A DNA stretch of 10,459 bases from Thermodesulfobacteriota bacterium (lineage in GTDB: Bacteria; Desulfobacterota; Desulfobacteria; Desulfobacterales; RPRI01): the NCBI GenBank assembly GCA_030836965.1, contig JAUPLM010000202.1, positions 1 through 10,459 of the forward strand, read 5' to 3'. Every line of letters begins with the position of its first letter. The stretch's first letter is position 1. Shown here piece by piece: positions 1 to 10,459 of this stretch. The translations under genes were made by a program, and so were the position numbers. The notes under the pieces were generated by a model that was not told the origin of the DNA, searched no databases, and was given only the letters and a program-made list of their open reading frames with translations.

Positions 1-51
1 CGAAGCCGTCCGGGTTGATTGGCATAAACGTTCAAATACAAGGAAACCAAA

Positions 52-408
52 ATGAACATCTTTATTGGAAATTTGTCGCGCGAGGCTACGGATGAAGATT
101 TAAGAAAACTTTTTGAAGCCTTTGGAGAGGTTACATCCGCTAATGTCATCAAGGAGAAGTTCGGCGGTCAGCCGAGAGGCTTCGGGTTTGTCGAAATGTC
201 CGCAAAAGCGGCGGCTCAGACCGCCATCACCGAACTCAACGGCAAGGAATTCATGGGCCGTGCGCTTAATGTCAACGAAGCGCGCCCCCGCACGGATGAC
301 CGTGGCGGCCGCGGGGGACGACCGGGTGGAGGAGGAGGCAGGCGGCCCGGCGGAGACAGAAGACCCGGAGGCGGAGGCAGGCCGGGTGGCGACAGGCGAC
401 CAAGATAG
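52..408 (+). CDS. RRM-domain RNA-binding protein with RGG tail
   Basis: A 118-residue, single-RRM protein of the bacterial glycine-rich RNA-binding type, expected to bind single-stranded RNA in the cytoplasm. RNP2 is IFIGNL (residues 3-8) and RNP1 is RGFGFVEM (42-49), with the aromatic residues that stack on RNA present in both. The RRM ends near residue 78. Residues 81-118 are a low-complexity Arg/Gly/Pro tail with repeated GGDRRP-like units, likely disordered and nucleic-acid binding. The start is supported by AAGGA at 40-44, 7 bases before the ATG. Bacterial relatives are often linked to cold or stress responses, but nothing here shows that directly. It appears monocistronic, with a hairpin following it. 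The family assignment is very secure; the physiological role is not. Confidence 0.95.
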   Translation: MNIFIGNLSREATDEDLRKLFEAFGEVTSANVIKEKFGGQPRGFGFVEMSAKAAAQTAITELNGKEFMGRALNVNEARPRTDDRGGRGGRPGGGGGRRPGGDRRPGGGGRPGGDRRPR

Positions 409-430
409 CTTGAGATATAATTTTTAAAAT

Positions 431-461
431 CCGTGCAGAGTGCGGATAATGCTCTGCACGG
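431..461 (+). terminator. Perfect 10-bp hairpin after the RRM gene
   Basis: CCGTGCAGAG (431-440) is exactly complementary to CTCTGCACGG (452-461) across an 11-base loop, starting 22 bases after the stop codon of the RRM gene. The plus-strand side is followed by AAATCTCTCTTCCC rather than a clean U run, so it is a weak intrinsic terminator in that direction. It could instead protect the 3' end of the transcript. On the minus strand the hairpin would be followed by ATTTTAAAAATTA, which is also imperfect. Confidence 0.6.
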
Positions 462-804
462 AAATCTCTCTTCCCTTCATCGACCGCATCCCGCATGTAT
501 AACATAACACGAATCAGGCATTCTCCTATGAAACCGGAAACCATAAAATAAGAACTAATCTTCCCTGTTTTTGGGAGGATAGCAAATATTATGAACAAAC
601 GTCCTTTTTCTCCGGTATTTCGGTATTTATATAACATGATACTTGCAATTCCATATCGTATGCCTTAAATTCTCACCATCATTCAGAAAAATCCGCTTAC
701 TCTTAAATTTTAACTATTGCGGCCAGGGAACTCCTTATATCACCGGAATTGACAGATCATGAGAGCCTCCCGAAGAGCCGGGGATTTATCCGGGATACTT
801 TTTA
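462..804. other. Gene-free stretch upstream of the kinase operon
   Basis: About 340 AT-rich bases between the RRM hairpin and the histidine kinase. I see no convincing protein, tRNA or repeat in it. The only candidate signal is a modest sigma-70-like promoter at 643-671. A perfect TTGACA at 749-754 has no matching -10 element at the right distance. Confidence 0.5.
643..671 (+). promoter_or_regulatory. Candidate sigma-70 promoter for the kinase operon
   Basis: TTGCAA at 643-648 and TAAATT at 666-671 are separated by 17 bases; each matches 4 of 6 consensus positions. This would give a leader of about 125 bases before the kinase ATG. Matches this weak are common by chance in AT-rich DNA. Confidence 0.25.
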
Positions 805-2232
805 ATGAATACTTTTTCTTTAAACATCCGCCAGAAGGTTATCGTCGGACTTACAATATGCCTTCTTGCGATAGGCTTTATCGGCGGAAACTCTTATCGC
901 TTTCTGCGGGAGATAGAACGCAAACAGCGCCTCGTTGAAATTGCGGATGATCTCAGCAATATAATACTTGAAATCCGCCGCTATGAAAAAAACTTCCTTC
1001 TTTACGGCTCAACGGACGATCTTGTCGAGAACAAGCGTTACATAAAAGAAGGCCTGAAGGTGCTTTCAACGATCGCACCTGAGATAAAGAAACTGCAGGG
1101 AGCTCCCCAGCTTGGCTATCTTGAAGAAGGGTTCGTGACGTACGGCAACCTCATGGATACGCTGGCGGTTTGTATCGTAAAAGGAAGACAAAACTGTGAA
1201 GATGATCTGGAAGACAGGCTTCGGATTGAAGGAAAAAATCTTGTGGACCGTTCAATTTCTCTCGTAACCTTTGAAAGAGAACGGATTCTGGTGATAATCG
1301 GAACCCTTGAAAAACATCTTCTCTTTACTCTTGTGATTTTTCTTTCGATGGGCGGATTTTTGATACCGATTGTGGCAAGAAAGATAATAAAGCCGCTCAA
1401 AATTATTGAAGAGACAACACTCCAGATAGCGAACGGAAATTTCAACCCCATCCCGGTTCAGAACGCCCGGGATGAAACAGAGCGCGTGGTTGACGCATTC
1501 AACCGCATGGTTGCGGAACTTGAAAAGCGCCAGGAGCAGCTGGTTCAGACAAAAAAGCTGTCATCGATAGGTATTCTTACGTCCGGAGTGGCTCACCAGC
1601 TCAATAATCCCCTTAACAACATATCAACCTCCTGTCAGATTCTTCTTGAAGAATACGGGAAGGCGGATCCCGAACTGACGCGCAAGATGCTTTCCAATAT
1701 CGAGCAGGAGGTCAGCAGGGCTAAAGATACGGTAAAAGGCCTTCTGGAATTTTCCAGAGACAGGGATTTCGCCCTTATCCCGGTCTCGCTTGGCGAAATC
1801 GTCGAACGCTCGATAAGGCTTGTTTCATGCCAGGTGCCTTCAGGAGTGGAGATTCAGAAAGATATCCCGGATGACCTGATTCTCAACATAGACATCCAGC
1901 GGATGCAGGAAGTATTTCTGAATCTCATTATGAATGCGGTTCAGGCGATTGAATGCTCCGCCGGTCTCATAAAAATATCAGCGCGCCCGGATTATGCCTC
2001 AGGCACGGCCGTTATAACCGTTGAAGACACAGGAACAGGTATTCCGGAAAAAAACTTCGGGATGATTTTCGATCCTTTTTTCACTACCAAGGAAGTAGGG
2101 GTCGGAACCGGCCTCGGGCTTTCAATAGTCTACGGTATTGTACAGAAACATCAGGGAACAATCTCGGTTGAGAGCAGGGTCGGAGAGGGTACAAAGTTCA
2201 TAATCCGCCTGCCTCTTCTTAAGCGGGCATGA
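805..2232 (+). CDS. Membrane sensor histidine kinase (HAMP-HisKA-HATPase)
   Basis: A 475-residue inner-membrane histidine kinase. A transmembrane helix lies at about 12-32 and a second at about 171-192. Between them is a roughly 135-residue, mostly helical extracytoplasmic sensor; its [13 protein letters not shown] segment (56-68) resembles four-helix-bundle/HBM-type sensors, so a small ligand or envelope signal is possible. A HAMP linker covers about 192-245. The H-box is [12 protein letters not shown] with the phospho-acceptor His264. The catalytic domain has the N-box (NLIMNAVQ, Asn377), G1 (VEDTGTG, Asp408), F-box (DPFFTTK) and G2 (GTGLGLS). All catalytic residues are present and no REC or PAS domain is attached. 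The ribosome site is weak (GGGA at 792-795). It lies 15 bases upstream of the response regulator gene, its presumed partner, and probably shares a transcript with it. The ligand cannot be read from the sequence. Confidence 0.95.
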
Positions 2233-2247
2233 GGGGAATTATTTAAG

Positions 2248-3603
2248 ATGAAGCAAGCCCGGATTCTGATAGTCGATGATGAGCAGATCGCAAGAGAAAA
2301 TCTTGACCTTATCCTCAAAAAGGAAGGATATGAGACTTTCCCGGTTGAGAGCGGGATAATAGCTTTGCAGGAGCTTGAAAAAAGAGAATTCGATCTTGTC
2401 CTTACCGATCTCAAGATGCAGGTTGTCGACGGCCTGCAGGTTCTTGAAAAAGCGCGGGAGATCCATCCCGATACAGAGGTAATAGTCATAACCGGTTATG
2501 CAACTGTTGCCACGGCAGTCGATGCAATGCAAAAGGGCGCTTTTTATTATCTGCCGAAACCGGTTAAAATAGATGAAGTGCGCATCCTTGTGCGTCAGGC
2601 ACTTGAGAAAAGATCTTTGAAAAAGGAGGTCGCCGACCTCAAACTCCGCATCGGGGACCGGAAGGAGACATTTCTCGTTACGGGCAATAACCCGAAAATG
2701 GAGAGCTTGAAAAAGACGGTGGAACAGATAGCTCCGACCGACTGCACCGTGCTTATTCTCGGCGAAACGGGAACCGGGAAGGAGCTGATTGCCCGGACAA
2801 TCCACCGGTTGAGCAACCGTTCCGGAAAAAGATTTATGGCAATAAACTGCGGAGCTTTCAATGAAGAACTCCTCGCGAATGAACTCTTCGGGCACGAAAA
2901 GGAAGCGTTTACCGGGGCGCGGGGCATAAAAAAAGGTCTCCTGGAGGCGGCAAACGGAGGAACTGTTTTTCTGGATGAAATAGGAGATATGCCTCTTTCC
3001 ATGCAGGTTAAGCTGCTGCGGGTGATGCAGGAGAGGACAATTATAAGAGTCGGAGGAACAGACGATCTCCCCGTCGATATTCGCGTGATTGCGGCGACAA
3101 ACAAGGATCTTGCCGGAGAGATTGAAGCAGGTTCTTTCCGCAGGGATCTATACTACCGTCTAAATGTAATTACCCTGCATCTGCCTCCTCTGGCGGAGAG
3201 GAAAGAGAGCATTCCGGTTTTATGCAGGCATTTTCTAAAAAAGTTTTCGGACGCGCAGAATAAAAATGTAGTGAACATATCCGGCGAAGTTACGGACATG
3301 CTTATGAGCTACGAGTTCCCGGGCAATATCCGCGAACTGGAAAATATTATCGAACATGCGGTGGCGATGGCCGAAAAGGATACTGTTGAGATGCGTCATC
3401 TTCCGGCCGATTTCCAGCAGTTGAAATTCAGGATAGCGGGCAGGCGTCAAAGGGAATTTCTGACACTTGAGGAAAACGAAATGGAATACATTGCCTGGGT
3501 GCTCGATCAGGTTGAGAATAAAAAAAGCAAGGCCGCCGAAATCCTCGGAATAGACAGGGTCTCTTTATGGAGAAAGCTCAGAAGGTATAATCTGGATACC
3601 TAA
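2248..3603 (+). CDS. NtrC-family sigma-54-dependent response regulator
   Basis: A 451-residue bacterial enhancer-binding protein. The REC domain (about 5-122) has Asp10/Asp11, phospho-acceptor Asp54, Thr82 and Lys104. The AAA+ sigma-54 interaction domain (about 146-375) has Walker A GETGTGKE (172-179), Walker B VFLDEI (240-245) and the arginine-finger segment FRRDLYYRLN (298-307). The sigma-54 contact loop reads EAFTGA (219-224), with Glu in place of the usual first Gly while the key Phe-Thr-Gly are kept. A Fis-type helix-turn-helix occupies about 424-447, ending in a WRKLRRY recognition segment. GAGGGG at 2231-2236 serves as ribosome site and overlaps the end of the kinase gene. Its stop codon overlaps the stop of the convergent protease gene. 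Likely targets are sigma-54 promoters with upstream dyads, such as those at 5739-5923. Family assignment is secure; the target is inferred. Confidence 0.96.
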   Translation: MKQARILIVDDEQIARENLDLILKKEGYETFPVESGIIALQELEKREFDLVLTDLKMQVVDGLQVLEKAREIHPDTEVIVITGYATVATAVDAMQKGAFYYLPKPVKIDEVRILVRQALEKRSLKKEVADLKLRIGDRKETFLVTGNNPKMESLKKTVEQIAPTDCTVLILGETGTGKELIARTIHRLSNRSGKRFMAINCGAFNEELLANELFGHEKEAFTGARGIKKGLLEAANGGTVFLDEIGDMPLSMQVKLLRVMQERTIIRVGGTDDLPVDIRVIAATNKDLAGEIEAGSFRRDLYYRLNVITLHLPPLAERKESIPVLCRHFLKKFSDAQNKNVVNISGEVTDMLMSYEFPGNIRELENIIEHAVAMAEKDTVEMRHLPADFQQLKFRIAGRRQREFLTLEENEMEYIAWVLDQVENKKSKAAEILGIDRVSLWRKLRRYNLDT

Positions 3604-5621
3604 AGAGCGCCATGCAGCACAAGTTTTACAATCCCTGGAATATCTTCCGCGAGCACCACCTCGACTCCTTCCTTTACTTCCGGCTCCAGAACAGCAATAT
3701 CAGACTTGTTCCGTTCGGGGAAAACCGTAACTTTTATTCCGCCGCGCTGGGCCGCAAGAATTTTTTCGCGTATCCCGCTGACGGCAAGTATTCTTCCGCT
3801 TAAGGTAAGTTCGCCGGTCAATGCTATATCGCTTCTTGCCGGTTTTCCGGTCAGAAGGGATATGAGGGCAACTGCTATAGTGACCCCGGCCGACGGCCCG
3901 TCTTTGCTTACCGCACCGGAAGGTATGTGGATATGAATATCTCTGCCCTCGAAAAAATCGGGATCTATCCCGAATTGAGCCGCATTGCTTCTGACAAAGC
4001 TGAGAGCGGTCTGCGCCGATTCCTGAAGAACATTTCCCATCGATCCTGTCAGGATGAGCTGCCGGTCTCCTTTCATCATTGACGCTTCAATAAAGATGAT
4101 CTCCCCTCCGAATTCCGTCCATACAAGCCCGGTTGCGACTCCGGGCCGGTTTCCCCTCTCAGCCGTCTCGTGATCGAACTTCCTTGAACCCAGAAGCTTT
4201 TGAACCAGGGCTTCATCAATCGTCACCTTGTCCGACTTCCGGTCGCTCTGAACCGAAAGTCTCGCAATTTTGCGGAAAATAGTCGCTATTTCACGTTCCA
4301 GATTCCGAAGACCCGCTTCCCTGGTATAATTCCGGATTACTTCGGATATCGCCTTTTCTGTAAAATCAGCTTTCATCCCTGTCAGGCCATGCTCCTGGAG
4401 CTGGCGCGGAATCAGATGAATCTTTGCTATGTGTTCCTTCTCTTTTTCAGTGTAACCCGTAAAACGGATTACTTCCAGCCGGTCAAGAAGAGGAGCGGGA
4501 AGTTTTTCAACCACGTTTGCCGTTGAAATAAACATAACGCCTGAAAGGTCAAACGGAGCATCAAGATAATGATCTGTAAAACGGCTGTTCTGTTCGGGAT
4601 CAAGAATTTCAAGCAGAACGGAAGCGGGATCTCCCCGGAAATCCTGTCCGATTTTATCTATTTCATCGAGCATGAAAACGGGATTTCTCGATCCTGCCCG
4701 CTTTATTTCATTGATAATTCTTCCCGGCATAGCTCCGACGTAAGTCCTGCGGTGCCCACGCAGATCGGCTTCATCTCTCATTCCGGCCAGCGAAATGCGG
4801 ACGAATTTTCTCTCAAGAGCTTCAGCAATGGCTTTTCCCACCGATGTTTTACCTGTTCCCGGAGGCCCCGCAAAACAGAGTATCGGACTCCGGGTCATCT
4901 GCAGGTGCTTTTTCTTTTCGATGAGCTGCCGTACGGTCGATCTCAGTTCATCCAGATTGATAGGCTTGGGAAGATAATGAAAAGCTCCTTTCTTCAAAGC
5001 ATCCACCGCCGAGCTGACCGTGGCAAAACCAGTTATCATAACAAGCTCCGCGTGAGGGGATATCTTCTTTGCCGATTCAAGGAGCTGCATACCGTCCATC
5101 TTTTCCATCTTGAGATCCGTCAGTATCAGGTCGATATTCCGGGTTTTAAGCACGTTCAGGGCTTCAAGTCCGTTTGCCGCCGTGCTGACCTCATATCCTT
5201 CCTTCTTAAGTATATATTCGAGGTTATCCCGCGCGATCTCTTCATCATCGACAACAAGCACATTAAAGGCCTGGAGGCTGAACAGGGTTCTGACTGAAAG
5301 ATACTCAAGCATGCGCTCTTTTATCTTATTCAGACCGTAATGCCTCGATTCCATTATTTTTCCGGCCCGATCAAGGTCGAGGTTGTCATTTGTGAAATTT
5401 TGCCAGGGAAGAGACAGGATATATTCAATATAATTAAGGCCTATGCTGTATTCGGGAGCGGAAGGATCCATGTTCTCCATCCGCTCCAGTTCCTTCAGTG
5501 CGATGGCTGTAAGAGAAGCCGATAATCCGGCTTTTTCAACAGACGCGCGAAGATCTGAAAGCTCCCGGTTTGATTTATCCCCTTCTTCTCTCGCTTTGTC
5601 AGGCTTTCTGGTAAAAATCAT
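3600..5621 (-). CDS. Lon-family AAA+ protease with inserted receiver domain
   Basis: A 673-residue Lon-type ATP-dependent serine protease with unusual architecture. The roughly 240-residue N-terminal substrate domain of classical Lon is absent; the protein opens with the helical segment that precedes the AAA+ domain (residues about 18-112, including EYILSLPW and HYGLNKIKERMLEYL). A complete REC domain follows at about 119-240, with Asp125/Asp126, phospho-acceptor Asp169, Thr197 and Lys219. Only then come Walker A GPPGTGKT (252-259), the YVGAMPGR pore loop (294-301) and Walker B MLDEID (Asp319/Glu320). The protease domain has catalytic Ser577 (KDGPSAG) and Lys620 (GIREKILAA), so activity is expected. 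The start at 5621 is chosen because AAAGGA lies 6 bases upstream; a longer TTG start at 5639 is possible but lacks such a site. It is divergent from the sigma-54 operon and convergent with the activator. REC phosphorylation probably gates ATPase or substrate entry (inference). Confidence 0.93.
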   Translation of the reverse strand: MIFTRKPDKAREEGDKSNRELSDLRASVEKAGLSASLTAIALKELERMENMDPSAPEYSIGLNYIEYILSLPWQNFTNDNLDLDRAGKIMESRHYGLNKIKERMLEYLSVRTLFSLQAFNVLVVDDEEIARDNLEYILKKEGYEVSTAANGLEALNVLKTRNIDLILTDLKMEKMDGMQLLESAKKISPHAELVMITGFATVSSAVDALKKGAFHYLPKPINLDELRSTVRQLIEKKKHLQMTRSPILCFAGPPGTGKTSVGKAIAEALERKFVRISLAGMRDEADLRGHRRTYVGAMPGRIINEIKRAGSRNPVFMLDEIDKIGQDFRGDPASVLLEILDPEQNSRFTDHYLDAPFDLSGVMFISTANVVEKLPAPLLDRLEVIRFTGYTEKEKEHIAKIHLIPRQLQEHGLTGMKADFTEKAISEVIRNYTREAGLRNLEREIATIFRKIARLSVQSDRKSDKVTIDEALVQKLLGSRKFDHETAERGNRPGVATGLVWTEFGGEIIFIEASMMKGDRQLILTGSMGNVLQESAQTALSFVRSNAAQFGIDPDFFEGRDIHIHIPSGAVSKDGPSAGVTIAVALISLLTGKPARSDIALTGELTLSGRILAVSGIREKILAAQRGGIKVTVFPERNKSDIAVLEPEVKEGVEVVLAEDIPGIVKLVLHGAL

Positions 5622-5683
5622 GACTGATCCTTTCACCAATATTATTCATCCGGAACCGATGAACCTGCTTACGGGTTTTTCCG

Positions 5684-5712
5684 ATTTTACAAAAAAATTA
5701 AGTCAATAGCAA
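5684..5712 (-). promoter_or_regulatory. Candidate sigma-70 promoter of the REC-Lon gene
   Basis: Read on the minus strand, TTGCTA (5707-5712) and TAAAAT (5684-5689) are spaced by 17 bases; the -10 matches 5 of 6 consensus positions and the -35 matches 4 of 6. Transcription would start near 5677, leaving a leader of about 55 bases. The dyad at 5739-5754 would sit about 70 bases upstream of that start, a place where an activator could act. Confidence 0.4.
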
Positions 5713-5738
5713 CCCTCATTCGTTTTCTATGCCCTTTC

Positions 5739-5754
5739 TGTTGCATATGGCAAC
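5739..5754. promoter_or_regulatory. Dyad operator copy 1 (TGTTGCATA-N2-GCAAC)
   Basis: TGTTGCATATGGCAAC contains the inverted repeat GTTGC/GCAAC around a 5-base centre at 5747. Copy 2, 87 bases away, shares TGTTGCATA and GCAA at the same spacing. This copy lies about 165 bases upstream of the sigma-54 promoter, within the usual range for an enhancer site of an NtrC-type activator. The bound protein is inferred, not shown. Confidence 0.5.
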
Positions 5755-5825
5755 GCCACCCCCGGGATGTAACATTTTCCCAACAATAAGAAATAATGAG
5801 ATATTTTTCTGCAGGATTAAAACGG

Positions 5826-5841
5826 TGTTGCATAGTGCAAT
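5826..5841. promoter_or_regulatory. Dyad operator copy 2 (TGTTGCATA-N2-GCAAT)
   Basis: TGTTGCATAGTGCAAT contains the perfect inverted repeat TTGCA/TGCAA centred at 5834. It matches copy 1 at 13 of 16 positions and lies about 75 bases upstream of the -24 element of the sigma-54 promoter. A pair of matching dyads is the typical arrangement for enhancer-binding proteins that act as oligomers. Confidence 0.5.
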
Positions 5842-5908
5842 AGATGCCAAATAGCCGTAAAATCCATATTGTTCATGTTTACAAGTATTTATACATGCTT
5901 TTAATAGC

Positions 5909-5923
5909 TGGCACAATCCTTGA
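5909..5923 (+). promoter_or_regulatory. Sigma-54 (-24/-12) promoter
   Basis: TGGCACAATCCTTGA matches the sigma-54 consensus TGGCAC-N5-TTGC with a perfect -24 element and exact spacing. The single core departure is A in place of the final C of the -12 element. Transcription would begin near 5935, about 30 bases before the ATG at 5964. It would serve the rightward operon and be driven by an activator bound at the two upstream dyads. Confidence 0.65.
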
Positions 5924-5963
5924 AATGCTTTTAGGAAAACACTCAAAAAAGGCTGACGATTTT

Positions 5964-6452
5964 ATGGATATTAAAAACAATACGGAAAACGGCATTAGGG
6001 ATGAGCGCCGGAAGATACTGGTTGCAGGAGAAGAAGGTTTTTTATCAGAGAGCGTTATGGATTACGCAATCCTTGTTGCAGGCAGGCTTGATTATGACCT
6101 TCTTGCGTTGAATGCGGTTTCGGAAGAGACGCTCAAATCCATTTCTCCCGGCAAAACAGGCTCCGGCAGGACATTTGATATTTCCGAAATCCGCTCCTGC
6201 GCTCTCTTTAAGATGAAGGCGGCATCAGGGGGGGTTAAATGTGATTGCATTGTCAGGGCAGGCAGCCCCGGAGAAACGGCAAAAAAAATAATCCACGAAA
6301 TAAAAAGGATAGAATTCGTAATAACAGGCTCTGATGAAATCAAAGAGAAAATCTCAGAAGAGGTCACAATACCGGTTTTCAGCGTTTTATCAATTAATAA
6401 TATAAGAGGAGAGAAGATTATGGGAGAGGAAATCAGCAAAAAAAGCCGATAG
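5964..6452 (+). CDS. Degenerate universal-stress-protein-like protein
   Basis: A 162-residue protein with the outline of a single USP domain: a first strand RKILVAGEE (about 16-24), a helix with an LVAGRLDYDLLAL segment, then VRAGSPGETAKKIIHEI and the strands FVITGS and PVFSVLS. The nucleotide-binding G-2x-G-9x-G-S/T loop of ATP-binding USPs is missing, so it is probably a non-ATP-binding member; the assignment rests on fold pattern and on the USP further along the operon. ATG 5964 is chosen because it lies just after the predicted sigma-54 start site, with AAGG 11 bases upstream. Upstream in-frame ATGs, as far as 5844, overlap the promoter region and lack ribosome sites. The last ten codons (from ATG 6420) overlap the start region of the following membrane-protein gene in the same frame. 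Confidence 0.65.
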   Translation: MDIKNNTENGIRDERRKILVAGEEGFLSESVMDYAILVAGRLDYDLLALNAVSEETLKSISPGKTGSGRTFDISEIRSCALFKMKAASGGVKCDCIVRAGSPGETAKKIIHEIKRIEFVITGSDEIKEKISEEVTIPVFSVLSINNIRGEKIMGEEISKKSR

Positions 6453-6766
6453 GCAGGACGATCGGATATGGCGCGGTAACTGTCGCTCTTTACGCTGCGG
6501 TTTTTATGAATGCGGATACGGTTACGAGCTACTTTACCAAAGGCAGCTGGTATGCGGCCCTGCCGGTTGCGACGGTCTTTATTTTTTCATTTGCTCATGG
6601 AGCGTTTGCGAGCAACCTGTGGTCTCTGCTCGGAATAGAGGCTGCAAGAAAGGATGTCAAGGTCACAACCGCAGAGAAAACAGTTCGTGAGGATGTCCGG
6701 GAAAAAAAGAGCGCACGAAAAAGACCTCGCGCCCGCGCATACATCAACCCGTTTCACAGAATATGA
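6420..6766 (+). CDS. Small two-helix membrane protein, frame broken at A7
   Basis: A small inner-membrane protein of unknown function. ATG 6420 has an excellent ribosome site (AGGAG at 6407-6411, 8 bases away), but its frame stops after 10 codons at 6450-6452. The protein-like sequence continues in the -1 frame from the A7 tract at 6438-6444. If the frame changes there, the product is about 115 residues: a polar start, TM1 at about 13-30 (TIGYGAVTVALYAAVFM), TM2 at about 43-66 (SWYAALPVATVFIFSFAHG), then a highly basic cytoplasmic tail (76-115, ending KRPRARAYINPFHRI). In that frame no ATG, GTG or TTG occurs between the stop at 6398 and ATG 6506. Starting at 6506 would cut off TM1 and has no ribosome site. 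It lies 61 bases ahead of the TauE permease gene and may be an accessory subunit (inference). Either a real frameshift, a slippage site or a sequencing error explains the break. Confidence 0.6.
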
Positions 6767-6827
6767 ATTTAAAACAAAACTACTGTCTTGATTCGGATTT
6801 TCAACATAACTACCTGAAGGGGGGAAT

Positions 6828-7892
6828 ATGCAGGATTTAGCATTGGAGAGTTTGAAGTTTATCGATCTTAATTTCATGTCTGTGGGATTCCTGTTTATAG
6901 TCGGTTTTATAGGAGGTCTTGTAAGCGGCTTCATAGGTTCGGGAGGAGCCTTTGTTCTTACCCCGGGCATGATGAGCCTTGGTGTTCCCGGAACAGTGGC
7001 GGTCGCGAGCAACATGTGTCATAAATTCCCGAAAGCCATGGTAGGCGCATACAAACGGTTCAAATACGGCCAGGTTGATCTCAAGCTAGGCCTTATACTT
7101 GCCGCATCTGCCGGGATCGGCGTTCAGGCCGGAATCCAGATTCAGCACTTTGTTCTCGGCAAATGGGGAGAGGCCGGATCAAATCTTTATGTGAGTCTCT
7201 CTTTTGTAGCAATCCTTATCATAGTAGGCGGATATGTCTTCTATGACGCGTGGAATACGGCAAGAACAGGCGGGGTGGAAAAGGTTACAAAACTTGCCCG
7301 CAAACTTCAATCAATAAACCTGCCTCCCATGATTTATTTCAAAACCGCTGATTTGAGAATATCCCTCTGGTTTACGGTTCCTGTCGGATTTGCGACCGGC
7401 CTTCTTGCCGCAACCATTGCGGTAGGCGGATTCATCGGTGTTCCGGGCATGATATATGTTTTAGGAGCATCGAGTCTTATCTCTTCCGCAACAGAGCTTG
7501 TAATTGCTTTTGTCATGGGCCTTGGCGGCTCAATCAACTGGGCTCTTCACGGAATGATCGACATCCGGCTTACCCTGATAATCCTCGGAGGCTCTCTTCT
7601 TGGAGTCCAGCTTGGAGCGATAGGAACAACTTATGTAAAGGAACATGTTATAAAGGTTGTGATGGGGTCAATAATGCTTCTCGTTGCGGTCAGCAGAGGG
7701 CTTGCCATCCCTAAATATCTCAATCAGCTCGGCCTGATCTCCATGAATGAAGGAAGCATCATGCTTCTTGGAAAACTCAGCTTTGTTGTAATGTGTATTT
7801 CTCTTGCTGTAGGAGCCATTATTATTCTGGGAAGCATGTGGAAAGCAAGAAGGCCTGCTCTTGCGATGGAAGAAAGTTACGTTAAAGCATAA
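6828..7892 (+). CDS. TauE/SafE-family membrane permease
   Basis: A 354-residue polytopic inner-membrane protein of the TauE/SafE (sulfite/organosulfur exporter-like) family. Two homologous halves each start with a Gly-rich motif: GGLVSGFIGSGGAFVLTPGM (29-48) and, in the second half, GLLAATIAVGGFIGVPGM (191-208). I count about eight hydrophobic segments: 17-45, 84-105, 121-140, 178-205, 220-240, 248-268, 272-292 and 312-337. An extended charged loop (141-177) separates the halves and makes it longer than the usual 250-residue members. Such proteins move small anions such as sulfite, sulfoacetate or related organosulfonates; the substrate here cannot be told. AAGG at 6817-6820 supports the start. 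It lies in the presumed sigma-54 operon, between the small membrane protein and the kinase-like gene. Confidence 0.9.
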   Translation: MQDLALESLKFIDLNFMSVGFLFIVGFIGGLVSGFIGSGGAFVLTPGMMSLGVPGTVAVASNMCHKFPKAMVGAYKRFKYGQVDLKLGLILAASAGIGVQAGIQIQHFVLGKWGEAGSNLYVSLSFVAILIIVGGYVFYDAWNTARTGGVEKVTKLARKLQSINLPPMIYFKTADLRISLWFTVPVGFATGLLAATIAVGGFIGVPGMIYVLGASSLISSATELVIAFVMGLGGSINWALHGMIDIRLTLIILGGSLLGVQLGAIGTTYVKEHVIKVVMGSIMLLVAVSRGLAIPKYLNQLGLISMNEGSIMLLGKLSFVVMCISLAVGAIIILGSMWKARRPALAMEESYVKA

Positions 7893-7910
7893 AAACAAGG
7901 GGGCTCATCC

Positions 7911-8720
7911 ATGGCAATTATCACGATTTCCAGAGGCTCATACAGCAGGGGAAAAGAGGTTGCCGGGAAGGTTGCAAAAAAACTCGGGTATGACTGCATT
8001 TCGAGAGATATACTCCTTGACGCTTCCGAAATGTTCAAAATACCCGAGATAAAGCTTATAAGTGCCATTGAAGACTCTCCGTCGATACTTGACCGGTTTA
8101 ATAACGGTAAGGAGAGATATGTCGCTTTCATTCAGGCGGCTCTTCTTAAATATCTTAAGGAAGACAACATTGTATATCATGGCTTTGCGGGCCATTTTTT
8201 TGTAAAAGATATTGCGCAAGTTTTAAAAGTACGTATTATAGCCGATATGGAAGAGAGAGTCAGGCTTGAAATGATCAGGGAAAACGTATCCGAAGAGAAG
8301 GCGGTCAGAACTATAATAAAGAACGACGAGCAGAGAAGAAAATGGAGCCTTTTTCTGTACGGAATAGATACGTCGGAGAGCAATCTGTACGATCTTGTAA
8401 TTCATATCAGAACAATGAACGCGGATGACGCGGCGGATATAATTTGCGATGCCGCGTCGCATGATTGCTTTCAAACTACCTGTGAATCCCGGAAACGCAT
8501 TGAAGATCTCGCATTGGCAGCCGAGGTCAAAGCTACTCTCATGGATTTGAGCCCTTATGTTGAAGCCTCCGCAGAGAACGGAACGGTTAACATCAGGGCA
8601 AAGATGCATGAGTATGGAAATGCTGACATGGAACTCAGGTTGAAAAACCTTGCGGAAAGCATTAATGGGGTAAAAGAGGCGAATATCAGGGTTTTTCCTG
8701 TTACCCAATTTACGGACTGA
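7911..8720 (+). CDS. Cytidylate-kinase-like protein with C-terminal BON-like domain
   Basis: A 269-residue cytoplasmic protein. Residues 1-185 match the cytidylate-kinase-like family: ITISRGSYSRGKE at the N-terminus is a P-loop-like nucleotide site (family form ISRxxGSGGxE), followed by YHGFAGHFF (89-97), VRIIADMEERV (107-117), and the closing segment YDLVIHIRTMNADDAADII (160-178). The P-loop has Ser-Arg-Gly in place of the usual Ser-Gly-Gly, so catalysis is uncertain. Residues about 196-263 look like a BON domain, with a helix, VEASAENGTVNIRAKM strands, a second helix and a NGVKEANIRVFPV closing strand. BON domains usually bind membranes or small ligands, so this may be a nucleotide-sensing regulator rather than a metabolic CMP kinase. 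The gene starts 18 bases after the permease gene, with AAGGGGG 7 bases before the ATG, so it is translated from the same message. Confidence 0.82.
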   Translation: MAIITISRGSYSRGKEVAGKVAKKLGYDCISRDILLDASEMFKIPEIKLISAIEDSPSILDRFNNGKERYVAFIQAALLKYLKEDNIVYHGFAGHFFVKDIAQVLKVRIIADMEERVRLEMIRENVSEEKAVRTIIKNDEQRRKWSLFLYGIDTSESNLYDLVIHIRTMNADDAADIICDAASHDCFQTTCESRKRIEDLALAAEVKATLMDLSPYVEASAENGTVNIRAKMHEYGNADMELRLKNLAESINGVKEANIRVFPVTQFTD

Positions 8721-8745
8721 ATTTCGGATAAGGACAAAGCCGCAA

Positions 8746-9564
8746 ATGGAACAGTATAAGAAGATACTTGCGGCAGTTGACGGGTCGGAAGCAAGCCTTC
8801 ACGCTCTGAATGAAGCGGTCCGCCTTTCTTACTGGATGCGTGGATCCGTTCGCGTGATTTCGGTTGTTCCTCCCTATGAAGGAGATCTGCGGTTCGCCGG
8901 CGTGAGAGATATAAAAGCCCTCATGAGGGAGCCCTGTGAAACCGTTCTGGCAAAAATAAAGAAGACCGCGGAGGAGATCGGCGCGGCGGTTGTGGCCGTT
9001 TGTAAAGAAGGCGAACCTTTTGAGAAAATTACCGAATTCGCCCAAACCGAAGGATGCGACCTTATAATAACGGGGGTTGAGGAAAAGCACCCGTTATACA
9101 GAATCCTGACCGGCGGGGTTACTGGTAGAATAATCCGGTCCGGAACAAGGGATGTCCTCGTAATACCGCATGAAACGTATATTGACTGGAACAGGATACT
9201 TGTTTCAACCGACTGCTCACAGGAAGGCAGAAGAGCTGCCGTAAGAGCGATCGGAATTGCAAAAGCTTACGGCGGGGAACTCCTGATACTGCCGGTTTCC
9301 GGGAATCGTTCCGCAGAAACGACAAAAAAATCCGAAGAATATTACAGGGAGATCGAAACTCTTTCATCGGGAATACCCCACAAATTCTTTTCTATAGCCG
9401 GAAACGCGGCCTTAGCAATTACCGAACTTGCTGCAGAGCAGAAGGCGGGCCTGATTGTTCTCGGACCTTTCACCAAAAAAAGTTCATTCGATATTTTTTC
9501 AAAAAGAACTTCTGAAACAGTAATTTACTCATCCCCCTGCCCCGTTCTTGTTGTAAAATATTGA
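8746..9564 (+). CDS. Tandem universal stress protein (two USP domains)
   Basis: A 272-residue cytoplasmic protein made of two USP domains, about 5-141 and 148-271. Domain 1 starts KKILAAVDGSEAS with the nucleotide-contacting Asp12; its signature loop reads G-2x-E-9x-G-G (110-124) rather than G-2x-G-9x-G-S/T. Domain 2 starts NRILVSTDCSQEG; its loop (GPFTKKSSFDIFSKR, 240-254) has lost the second and third glycines. Domain 1 may keep partial ATP binding, while domain 2 is probably structural or binds something else. The start is supported by AAGGA at 8730-8734, 11 bases upstream. It is the last gene of the presumed operon, 25 bases after the kinase-like gene. USP proteins associated with transporters often act as regulators of the transporter, so control of the permease is a reasonable guess. 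Confidence 0.9.
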   Translation: MEQYKKILAAVDGSEASLHALNEAVRLSYWMRGSVRVISVVPPYEGDLRFAGVRDIKALMREPCETVLAKIKKTAEEIGAAVVAVCKEGEPFEKITEFAQTEGCDLIITGVEEKHPLYRILTGGVTGRIIRSGTRDVLVIPHETYIDWNRILVSTDCSQEGRRAAVRAIGIAKAYGGELLILPVSGNRSAETTKKSEEYYREIETLSSGIPHKFFSIAGNAALAITELAAEQKAGLIVLGPFTKKSSFDIFSKRTSETVIYSSPCPVLVVKY

Positions 9565-9668
9565 CTCAGCAAAACGTAATTTTCATAACACTCTTATTTA
9601 ATTTCATTATTCTGTATACCGGCCTGTGCCTTATTTGGTTTCCTCTTTCTGGTAAATCGTGTTTGATA

Positions 9669-9697
9669 TTGACATAAAGTGCCATATTCTTTATATC
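9669..9697 (+). promoter_or_regulatory. Sigma-70 promoter of the TAXI binding-protein gene
   Basis: A perfect TTGACA (9669-9674) and TATATC (9692-9697) are separated by 17 bases. The start site would be near 9704, leaving a leader of about 80 bases. This indicates that the binding-protein gene is transcribed apart from the upstream operon. I see no clear hairpin terminator between 9565 and 9660. Confidence 0.55.
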
Positions 9698-9783
9698 TCT
9701 TCAAAAGTTAAAGGGCTCAATAGAAGATCTGATGTTGACGGTTTACAATTGTTTGACAAAAAACAAAAAAGGAGAAAATAGTT

Positions 9784-10459
9784 ATGAAAAAATTGTTAGG
9801 TTTTTGTGTAGCTGTTCTGTTTGTGATCAGCATGGTGGCCCCGGTTTACGCGGCTGATACCAAGCTGGTCCTCGCAACCGGCGGAACTGCCGGAACTTAC
9901 TATCCCTTCGGCGGCGCCATGGCAAGAATCTGGAATACCAAGATTCCGGGCATGAACGTGACCGCGCAGACCACAGGCGCATCGGCCGAGAACATCCGGC
10001 TGGTAAACAAAAAAGAAGCCGAACTTGCGCTTGTTCAGAGCGATACCCTCGACTTTGCTTACAATGCCAAGGAAGCGTTCAAAGAAGCCATAAAGAGCAT
10101 GAGCACCATCGCTGTTCTCTATCCTGAAATCATCCAGGTTGTCGTCCGGGCGGACTCCCCCATCAAATCCATCGCGGATCTGAAGGGAAAGAAAGTAGGA
10201 GTAGGAGCACCCGGAAGCGGAACCGAAGCCAATTTCAGACAATTAATGGACATTTACGGACTGGCCAAGGATGACGTCAAGAGCCAGTATCTCTCTTTTT
10301 CAGAGAGCGCCGAGCAGTTCAAAGACAGGCATATAGACGCCTTCATCGTGACAGCCGGCATTCCCAATGCGGCAATCATGGATATCGGCACACAGCATGA
10401 AGTCAGGATAATTAATATTCCTGCCGACATGTCGGCCAAGCTTACCGCGAAATACCCCT
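9784..10459 (+). CDS. TAXI-family TRAP transporter solute-binding protein (partial)
   Basis: The first 225 codons of a periplasmic binding protein, cut by the window end (family length is about 320). A signal peptide (KK, then a hydrophobic core at 4-20, and VYA before the likely cleavage after Ala23) directs export. The mature start LVLATGGTAGTYYPFGGAMARIW is the TAXI-type signature, followed by TTGASAENIRLVNKKEAELALVQ and IADLKGKKVGVGAPGSGTE, both standard for the family. It would deliver an organic acid or amino acid to a TRAP membrane permease, probably encoded downstream outside the window. AGGAG at 9770-9774 lies 9 bases before the ATG. Codons tend to end in C more than in the preceding genes, which suggests high expression. 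The substrate cannot be told. Confidence 0.95.
   Translation, partial: MKKLLGFCVAVLFVISMVAPVYAADTKLVLATGGTAGTYYPFGGAMARIWNTKIPGMNVTAQTTGASAENIRLVNKKEAELALVQSDTLDFAYNAKEAFKEAIKSMSTIAVLYPEIIQVVVRADSPIKSIADLKGKKVGVGAPGSGTEANFRQLMDIYGLAKDDVKSQYLSFSESAEQFKDRHIDAFIVTAGIPNAAIMDIGTQHEVRIINIPADMSAKLTAKYP

Follow-up and report, generated by a model that had tools for sequence, protein, structure and literature searches.

Why does a Lon protease carry a receiver (REC) domain in the middle of its chain, and what might this domain switch? The question is raised by a stretch of 10,459 nucleotides from a Thermodesulfobacteriota bacterium (assembly GCA_030836965.1, contig JAUPLM010000202.1, positions 1 to 10,459 of the forward strand), which was analysed as a whole and is called the window below. 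Its minus strand encodes the combined protein, here named REC-Lon. We favour the explanation, with a probability of roughly 0.6, that REC-Lon represents one of two outputs of a single two-component system and that phosphorylation gates the protease. Such phospho-control is supported indirectly by sequence features, namely by invariant phosphorylation residues, an adjacent kinase gene and a REC domain related to the one in the neighbouring regulator. The gene and its inserted domain are located as follows:

3600..5621, minus strand: REC-Lon gene, 673 residues (open reading frame, Pfam, structure match and model)
4932..5261, minus strand: inserted REC domain, residues 121-230, phospho-acceptor D169 (Pfam PF00072 and model)

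The receiver domain inserted into Lon

The REC-Lon reading frame starts with an ATG at position 5621 and ends with the stop codon at 3600-3602. A TTG at 5639 would give an alternative form of 679 residues, but the ATG is preferred because M1 is kept in at least 90% of the family and AAAGGA, recognised by eye, is found just upstream. A short, poorly conserved N-terminus is followed by a three-helix bundle, the REC domain, the AAA+ domain, the lid and the S16 protease domain. The Pfam match to REC at residues 121-230 covers profile positions 1-110 of 111 (E-value 2e-29), and the other domains are AAA at 248-388 (PF00004), Lon_lid at 409-461 (PF22667) and Lon_C at 468-669 (PF05362, E-value 1.6e-75).

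An initial annotation of the window, made from the sequence letters, had placed a REC domain between a Lon helix and the Walker A strand, two elements which it regarded as almost adjacent in classical Lon. Both statements are borne out by Pfam and by the alignment to LonA of Bacillus subtilis (3m6a), in which residues 18-113 of REC-Lon correspond to residues 7-102 of the chain and residues 242-669 to 105-530; in other words, 128 residues of REC-Lon replace a two-residue step directly before Walker A. The classical Lons of the same and related genomes have five residues between the columns of residues 113 and 245 in 18 of 18 cases. The same annotation had noted the loss of the N-terminal substrate domain, and here, too, the evidence agrees: a Lon substrate-binding domain is absent from the 14 Pfam families matched by 66 REC-Lon members, and residue 18, which lies in the three-helix region, is where the match to 3m6a, a construct titled C-terminal domain, begins. 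Compared to LonA (3m6a and the Lons of Escherichia coli, Yersinia pestis and Meiothermus taiwanensis), REC-Lon therefore differs by a missing domain as well as by an inserted one.

Single-chain structure prediction gave REC as a separate alpha/beta fold, on whose presence the initial annotation had made its reading depend. The fold is joined to the three-helix bundle by a loop of 3 residues and to the Walker A strand by an extended helix alpha5 (residues 223-243), which runs towards the latter and adjoins the strand 247-251. A REC domain placed before an AAA+ ring is also known from the NtrC-family sigma54 activators such as NtrC1 (1ny5), and the best matches to the Lon REC in the PDB include 1ny5 along with further chains of this family. 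In contrast to the NtrC family, the output of REC-Lon would be proteolysis rather than transcription, and its REC follows an N-terminal helix bundle.

This architecture, whose distribution the initial annotation had left to a search, is not rare. When contigs of bacteria and archaea were scanned with the N-terminal/REC portion, 549 pattern hits were obtained, 513 of them being relatives, the best 80 of which were kept as loci, and no locus among these best 80 of 513 is titled Desulfovibrio vulgaris. By the criterion of our script, the REC-Lon reading frame is complete in 67 of the 80 loci (including L041, which begins at a contig end) and partial in 11, while 2 have no passing frame. The locus titles point to Deltaproteobacteria (Desulfobacteraceae, Syntrophobacteraceae, Desulfobulbus), a few 'Proteobacteria' and Nitrospirae. 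Among 297 genomes of the phylum, the own one included, 34 full matches (reading frames of 644-825 residues) and 2 partial matches (259 and 251 residues) to the N-terminal/REC alignment were obtained at a threshold of 1e-40, hence these counts represent a lower bound. REC-Lon is found in 13 of 59 near relatives, again with the own genome included, and for all 13 at least one classical Lon is also among the matches listed; REC-Lon is hence an extra, specialised Lon. 20 REC-Lons (the window and 19 of the 67) are split from 18 classical Lons in the AAA+/protease tree with SH-aLRT support of 99.

The combination of REC, AAA, lid and Lon_C is present in 66 of 66 members, PF00004 and PF22667 among them. 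In these aligned homologues the phosphorylation residues D126, D169, T197 and K219 are invariant (66/66 each; D125 in 65/66), and the same is true for the protease dyad S577 and K620 and for K258, D319 and E320 of Walker A and B. The initial annotation was right in calling both the phosphorylation set and the catalytic and AAA+ motifs complete, and its gene coordinates and the numbering of Asp169, Ser577 and Lys620 are correct. Furthermore, both REC junctions have a single length in 66/66.

A few observations at the edge of the family should be mentioned. In one locus (L066:5125-7317) the REC-Lon matches shift the reading frame within REC, which points either to a disrupted gene or to a mistake in the assembly. 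Three genomes (G131:C11, G164:C28 and G158:C1) gave no REC-Lon match at the threshold and hold short stand-alone REC reading frames of 132-141 residues that resemble the Lon REC. When a viral origin was considered, viral contigs gave 4 weak matches, 0 of them across the Lon-REC junction; the viral fold list is headed by giant-virus Lons and has no bearing on REC.

Neighbouring genes and the related receiver domain

The initial annotation of REC-Lon made no use of the surrounding genes. The kinase, the sigma54 regulator and the divergent stress operon are what identifies the system:

52-408, upstream of the kinase: small RRM-domain RNA-binding protein with Gly/Arg-rich tail
805..2232, plus strand: histidine kinase with HAMP, HisKA and HATPase_c (Pfam), membrane-bound as judged by eye
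2248..3603, plus strand: NtrC-type sigma54 response regulator with REC, sigma54-interaction domain and Fis helix-turn-helix (Pfam)
5844..6452, plus strand: first gene of the divergent operon, resembling a universal stress protein (USP) by eye, probable start at 5964
6828..7892, plus strand: TauE/SafE anion exporter family protein (Pfam)
7911..8720, plus strand: cytidylate kinase-like protein (Pfam PF13189)
8746..9564, plus strand: tandem USP (Pfam, two matched stretches)
9784-10458: NMT1_3 family, solute-binding-like protein, cut by the window end

The genes for REC-Lon, the kinase and the sigma54 regulator thus lie together within positions 805-5621; the regulator gene is convergent with REC-Lon, and the ends of the two overlap by 4 bp. 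The first gene of the divergent operon gave no Pfam match. The usual contact loop of sigma54 activators is GAFTGA, and the regulator of the window reads EAFTGA at this position. For DVU3305, the D. vulgaris regulator discussed below, GAFSGA is listed (PMC4641369).

The association recurs in other genomes. With thresholds of at least 30% identity over at least 300 residues for the kinase and at least 45% over at least 300 residues for the regulator, the kinase was found in 49 of the 80 REC-Lon loci, the NtrC-type regulator in 45 and both together in 45. When the count is restricted to loci flanked by 4 kb or more on each side, the regulator is present in 29 of 34. The strand and side of kinase and regulator differ between loci. 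A TauE gene occurs in 42/80 loci, in 34 of them 5' of REC-Lon (61-78% identity) and in 8 elsewhere (30-33%), the USP-like reading frame in 37/80 and always 5' of REC-Lon, the tandem USP in 25/80 and the cytidylate kinase-like gene in 16/80.

Moreover, the two REC domains encoded side by side are close relatives. Compared with 53 other REC matches in its own genome, the Lon REC is closest to the REC of the neighbouring sigma54 regulator (146 bits, 57% identity), followed at a distance by a match of 94 bits and 44%; all others reach at most 47% identity. The relation also holds in the reverse direction, among the loci of 30 of the 60 REC domains of the genome. Helix alpha1 of REC domains is the docking site for the kinase. 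Its identity is 0.57 in 45 Lon/partner pairs from the same locus versus 0.23 between Lon REC and other RECs, and for the rest of the domain the values are 0.48 versus 0.33, a contrast that may be inflated since the partner set was chosen at 45% or more identity to the window regulator. In a REC tree with 169 rows, 76 Lon RECs fall on one side of a branch with support 0, and the joint branch of Lon and partner RECs reaches SH-aLRT 90 with 5 rows misplaced, which makes common descent of the two groups likely. The residues separating Lon RECs from partner RECs are mild substitutions (V123, A148, L223, K237) that outline no clear interface, and a further candidate, H239, rests on few rows. Taken together, these comparisons make it likely that Lon REC and regulator REC share descent and that the kinase 805-2232 is the phosphodonor for both; that they share one kinase is what we infer from their kinship.

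Operator-like sites between REC-Lon and the divergent operon

The region between REC-Lon and the divergent operon contains three candidate regulatory sites:

5741..5753, no strand: operator-like palindrome TTGCATATGGCAA (pattern match)
5828..5840, no strand: another operator-like palindrome TTGCATAGTGCAA, at a distance of 87 bp
5909..5923, plus strand: sigma54 promoter-like site TGGCACAATCCTTGA, facing the divergent operon

The pattern TTGC-N5-GCAA is found twice here, and its TTGCATA form has 2 matches with 0.01 expected in the window, a pattern that was drawn only after the sites had been seen. In the other loci, the upstream region of REC-Lon carries exact TTGC-N4-6-GCAA sites in 39 cases out of 75 (69 sites versus 3.8 expected). 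Pairs spaced by 85-91 bp, for which one mismatch was tolerated, are present there in 41 of 75 loci versus 0.15 expected. Likewise, a sigma54 promoter-like site pointing towards the divergent operon is present in 45 of 74 loci compared to 9.6 expected. A scan of the window alone for the sigma54 consensus stayed at chance level, with 23 matches versus 21.8 expected when no more than 3 mismatches were permitted. The promoter-like site 5909-5923 falls inside the listed reading frame 5844-6452, the ATG at 5844 being upstream of it, hence the first operon gene probably starts at the ATG at 5964.

Phosphorylation control and its alternatives

The architecture is not new in kind, and, according to the papers on D. 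vulgaris, the central hypothesis of a phospho-controlled Lon is already in print. In the Hildenborough strain of this sulfate-reducing bacterium, DVU3303 is described as a response regulator containing lon protease, which forms a three-component system with the kinase DVU3304 and the sigma54 regulator DVU3305, and its activation by phosphorylation was suggested (Rajeev et al. 2011, PMC3333781). DVU3305 is listed as sigma54 regulator of both gene groups (PMC4641369), and the operon under its control encodes proteins of the UspA type as well as a putative anion transporter, a conserved binding site having been reported (PMC3333781); in its gene content, the divergent operon of the window is similar. 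The three genes show cofitness above 0.9 (PMC10102598). They are treated as one operon (PMC3333781, PMC4641369), whereas REC-Lon of the window is convergent with kinase and regulator. Like DVU3303, REC-Lon is a Lon-containing response regulator encoded beside a kinase and a sigma54 regulator, and it apparently belongs to the same family, as judged from the descriptions in the papers and not from sequence. Beyond the D. vulgaris papers, the literature search for Lon proteases that carry a receiver domain listed nothing relevant. What the present analysis contributes is the precise site of insertion, the invariant switch residues, the relationship between the two REC domains, the spread of the module and the operator-like pair.

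Our favoured explanation can be formulated as a chain of events, in which we infer the phosphotransfer, the operator binding, the gating and its direction, and the substrate. The kinase 805-2232 would sense envelope or oxidant/anion stress and phosphorylate two related REC domains, the one of the sigma54 activator and the one of Lon. The activator 2248-3603 would then bind the paired TTGC-N5-GCAA sites and turn on the divergent stress and anion-export operon. On the other branch, phosphorylated REC would shift the Lon ring to its active state, most likely by altering hexamer assembly or ATP turnover, given that REC is connected by the 3-residue loop and the extended alpha5; the active protease would degrade a specific regulatory substrate, which REC may also dock because the N-terminal substrate domain is absent. 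One kinase most likely controls transcription and proteolysis jointly. The more specific forked version, in which one kinase drives a transcription factor and directly opens the Lon ring through a related REC beside Walker A, is proposed tentatively, at slightly less than even odds.

It must be mentioned that several results weigh against this explanation. Docking positions are barely more similar in same-locus pairs than in shuffled pairs (0.584 versus 0.572, with 39 of 1000 shuffles as high), as is the rest of the domain (0.477 versus 0.469, 14 of 1000), hence the sign of fine co-evolution with one kinase is weak. The retrieval pattern behind the best 80 of 513 relatives lay close to D169, and the invariance is therefore partly a result of selection. 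Furthermore, a constant length is likewise seen for the AAA, lid and protease blocks, and for the REC linker of the partner regulator in 41 of 44 cases, which makes the argument from fixed junctions weaker than it first looked. Five of the 34 well-flanked loci (L039, L077, L080, L085 and L112) have no partner NtrC above threshold, one of them, L112, holding a C-terminal fragment of the regulator. No exact operator site is found in 36 of 75 loci, and a sigma54 promoter towards REC-Lon itself is not clearly enriched (14/74 loci versus 8.45 expected). In D. vulgaris, mutants of DVU3303-3305 showed positive fitness with chlorate and the mutant of the target DVU3299 negative fitness (PMC10102598); these opposite signs fit poorly to a simple activation of DVU3299, and polar effects within the single operon could also produce the high cofitness. 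Finally, the accessible literature contained no experiment on the REC-Lon switch or its substrate and no biochemical result.

Which other explanations, then, can account for the inserted domain? REC could act as a built-in adaptor instead of an ATPase switch. It would then bring in a substrate, such as the partner sigma54 regulator bound through REC-REC pairing, which would make REC-Lon a negative-feedback protease of its own system. REC-containing proteins controlling the AAA+ protease ClpXP exist in the form of RssB and CpdR, in which the REC belongs to a separate adaptor, unlike REC-Lon, where it is part of the protease chain. The missing substrate domain and the close kinship of the two RECs would fit such a role. 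However, REC is flanked by the helix bundle and Walker A, its junctions being fixed in length, instead of sitting at a free end, and for a protease that destroys the activator, opposite fitness signs would be expected in D. vulgaris, where Lon, kinase and regulator mutants share their fitness pattern, again with the caveat of polarity. We consider the adaptor role unlikely, though deserving serious attention.

Much less credit can be given to a REC that mainly serves as phosphate sink or insulation for the kinase while proteolysis is constitutive. Two similar RECs beside one kinase would suit this idea, but it does not call for a REC inserted next to Walker A, or for residues of the ATPase and the protease that are invariant in 66/66. 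It is just as hard to believe that the REC fold was kept for assembly only and that its phosphorylation has been lost or become irrelevant; the loci lacking a partner NtrC would be in line with it, but the Asp, Thr and Lys set is invariant in 66 rows, those from these five loci included. An assembly chimera of Lon and a response regulator, named as a danger by the initial annotation, had to be considered for a window from a fragmented, 63.6%-complete assembly. The same complete reading frame in 67/80 other loci and the matches in the 297 phylum genomes leave practically no room for it, and the chimera as well as the pseudogene reading were rejected in view of independent complete copies and invariant residues.

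If phosphorylation indeed gates REC-Lon, the consequences would reach beyond this locus. As a rule, AAA+ proteases are directed by adaptors or by tags on their substrates, and a ring with its own phospho-switch would link an environmental signal directly to proteolysis and offer a natural blueprint for degradation that can be switched. If the forked output is true as well, a single signal would rewrite both the synthesis and the destruction of proteins. The REC-Lon family is not rare, it often stands beside kinase and regulator, and with D. vulgaris it includes a genetic model.

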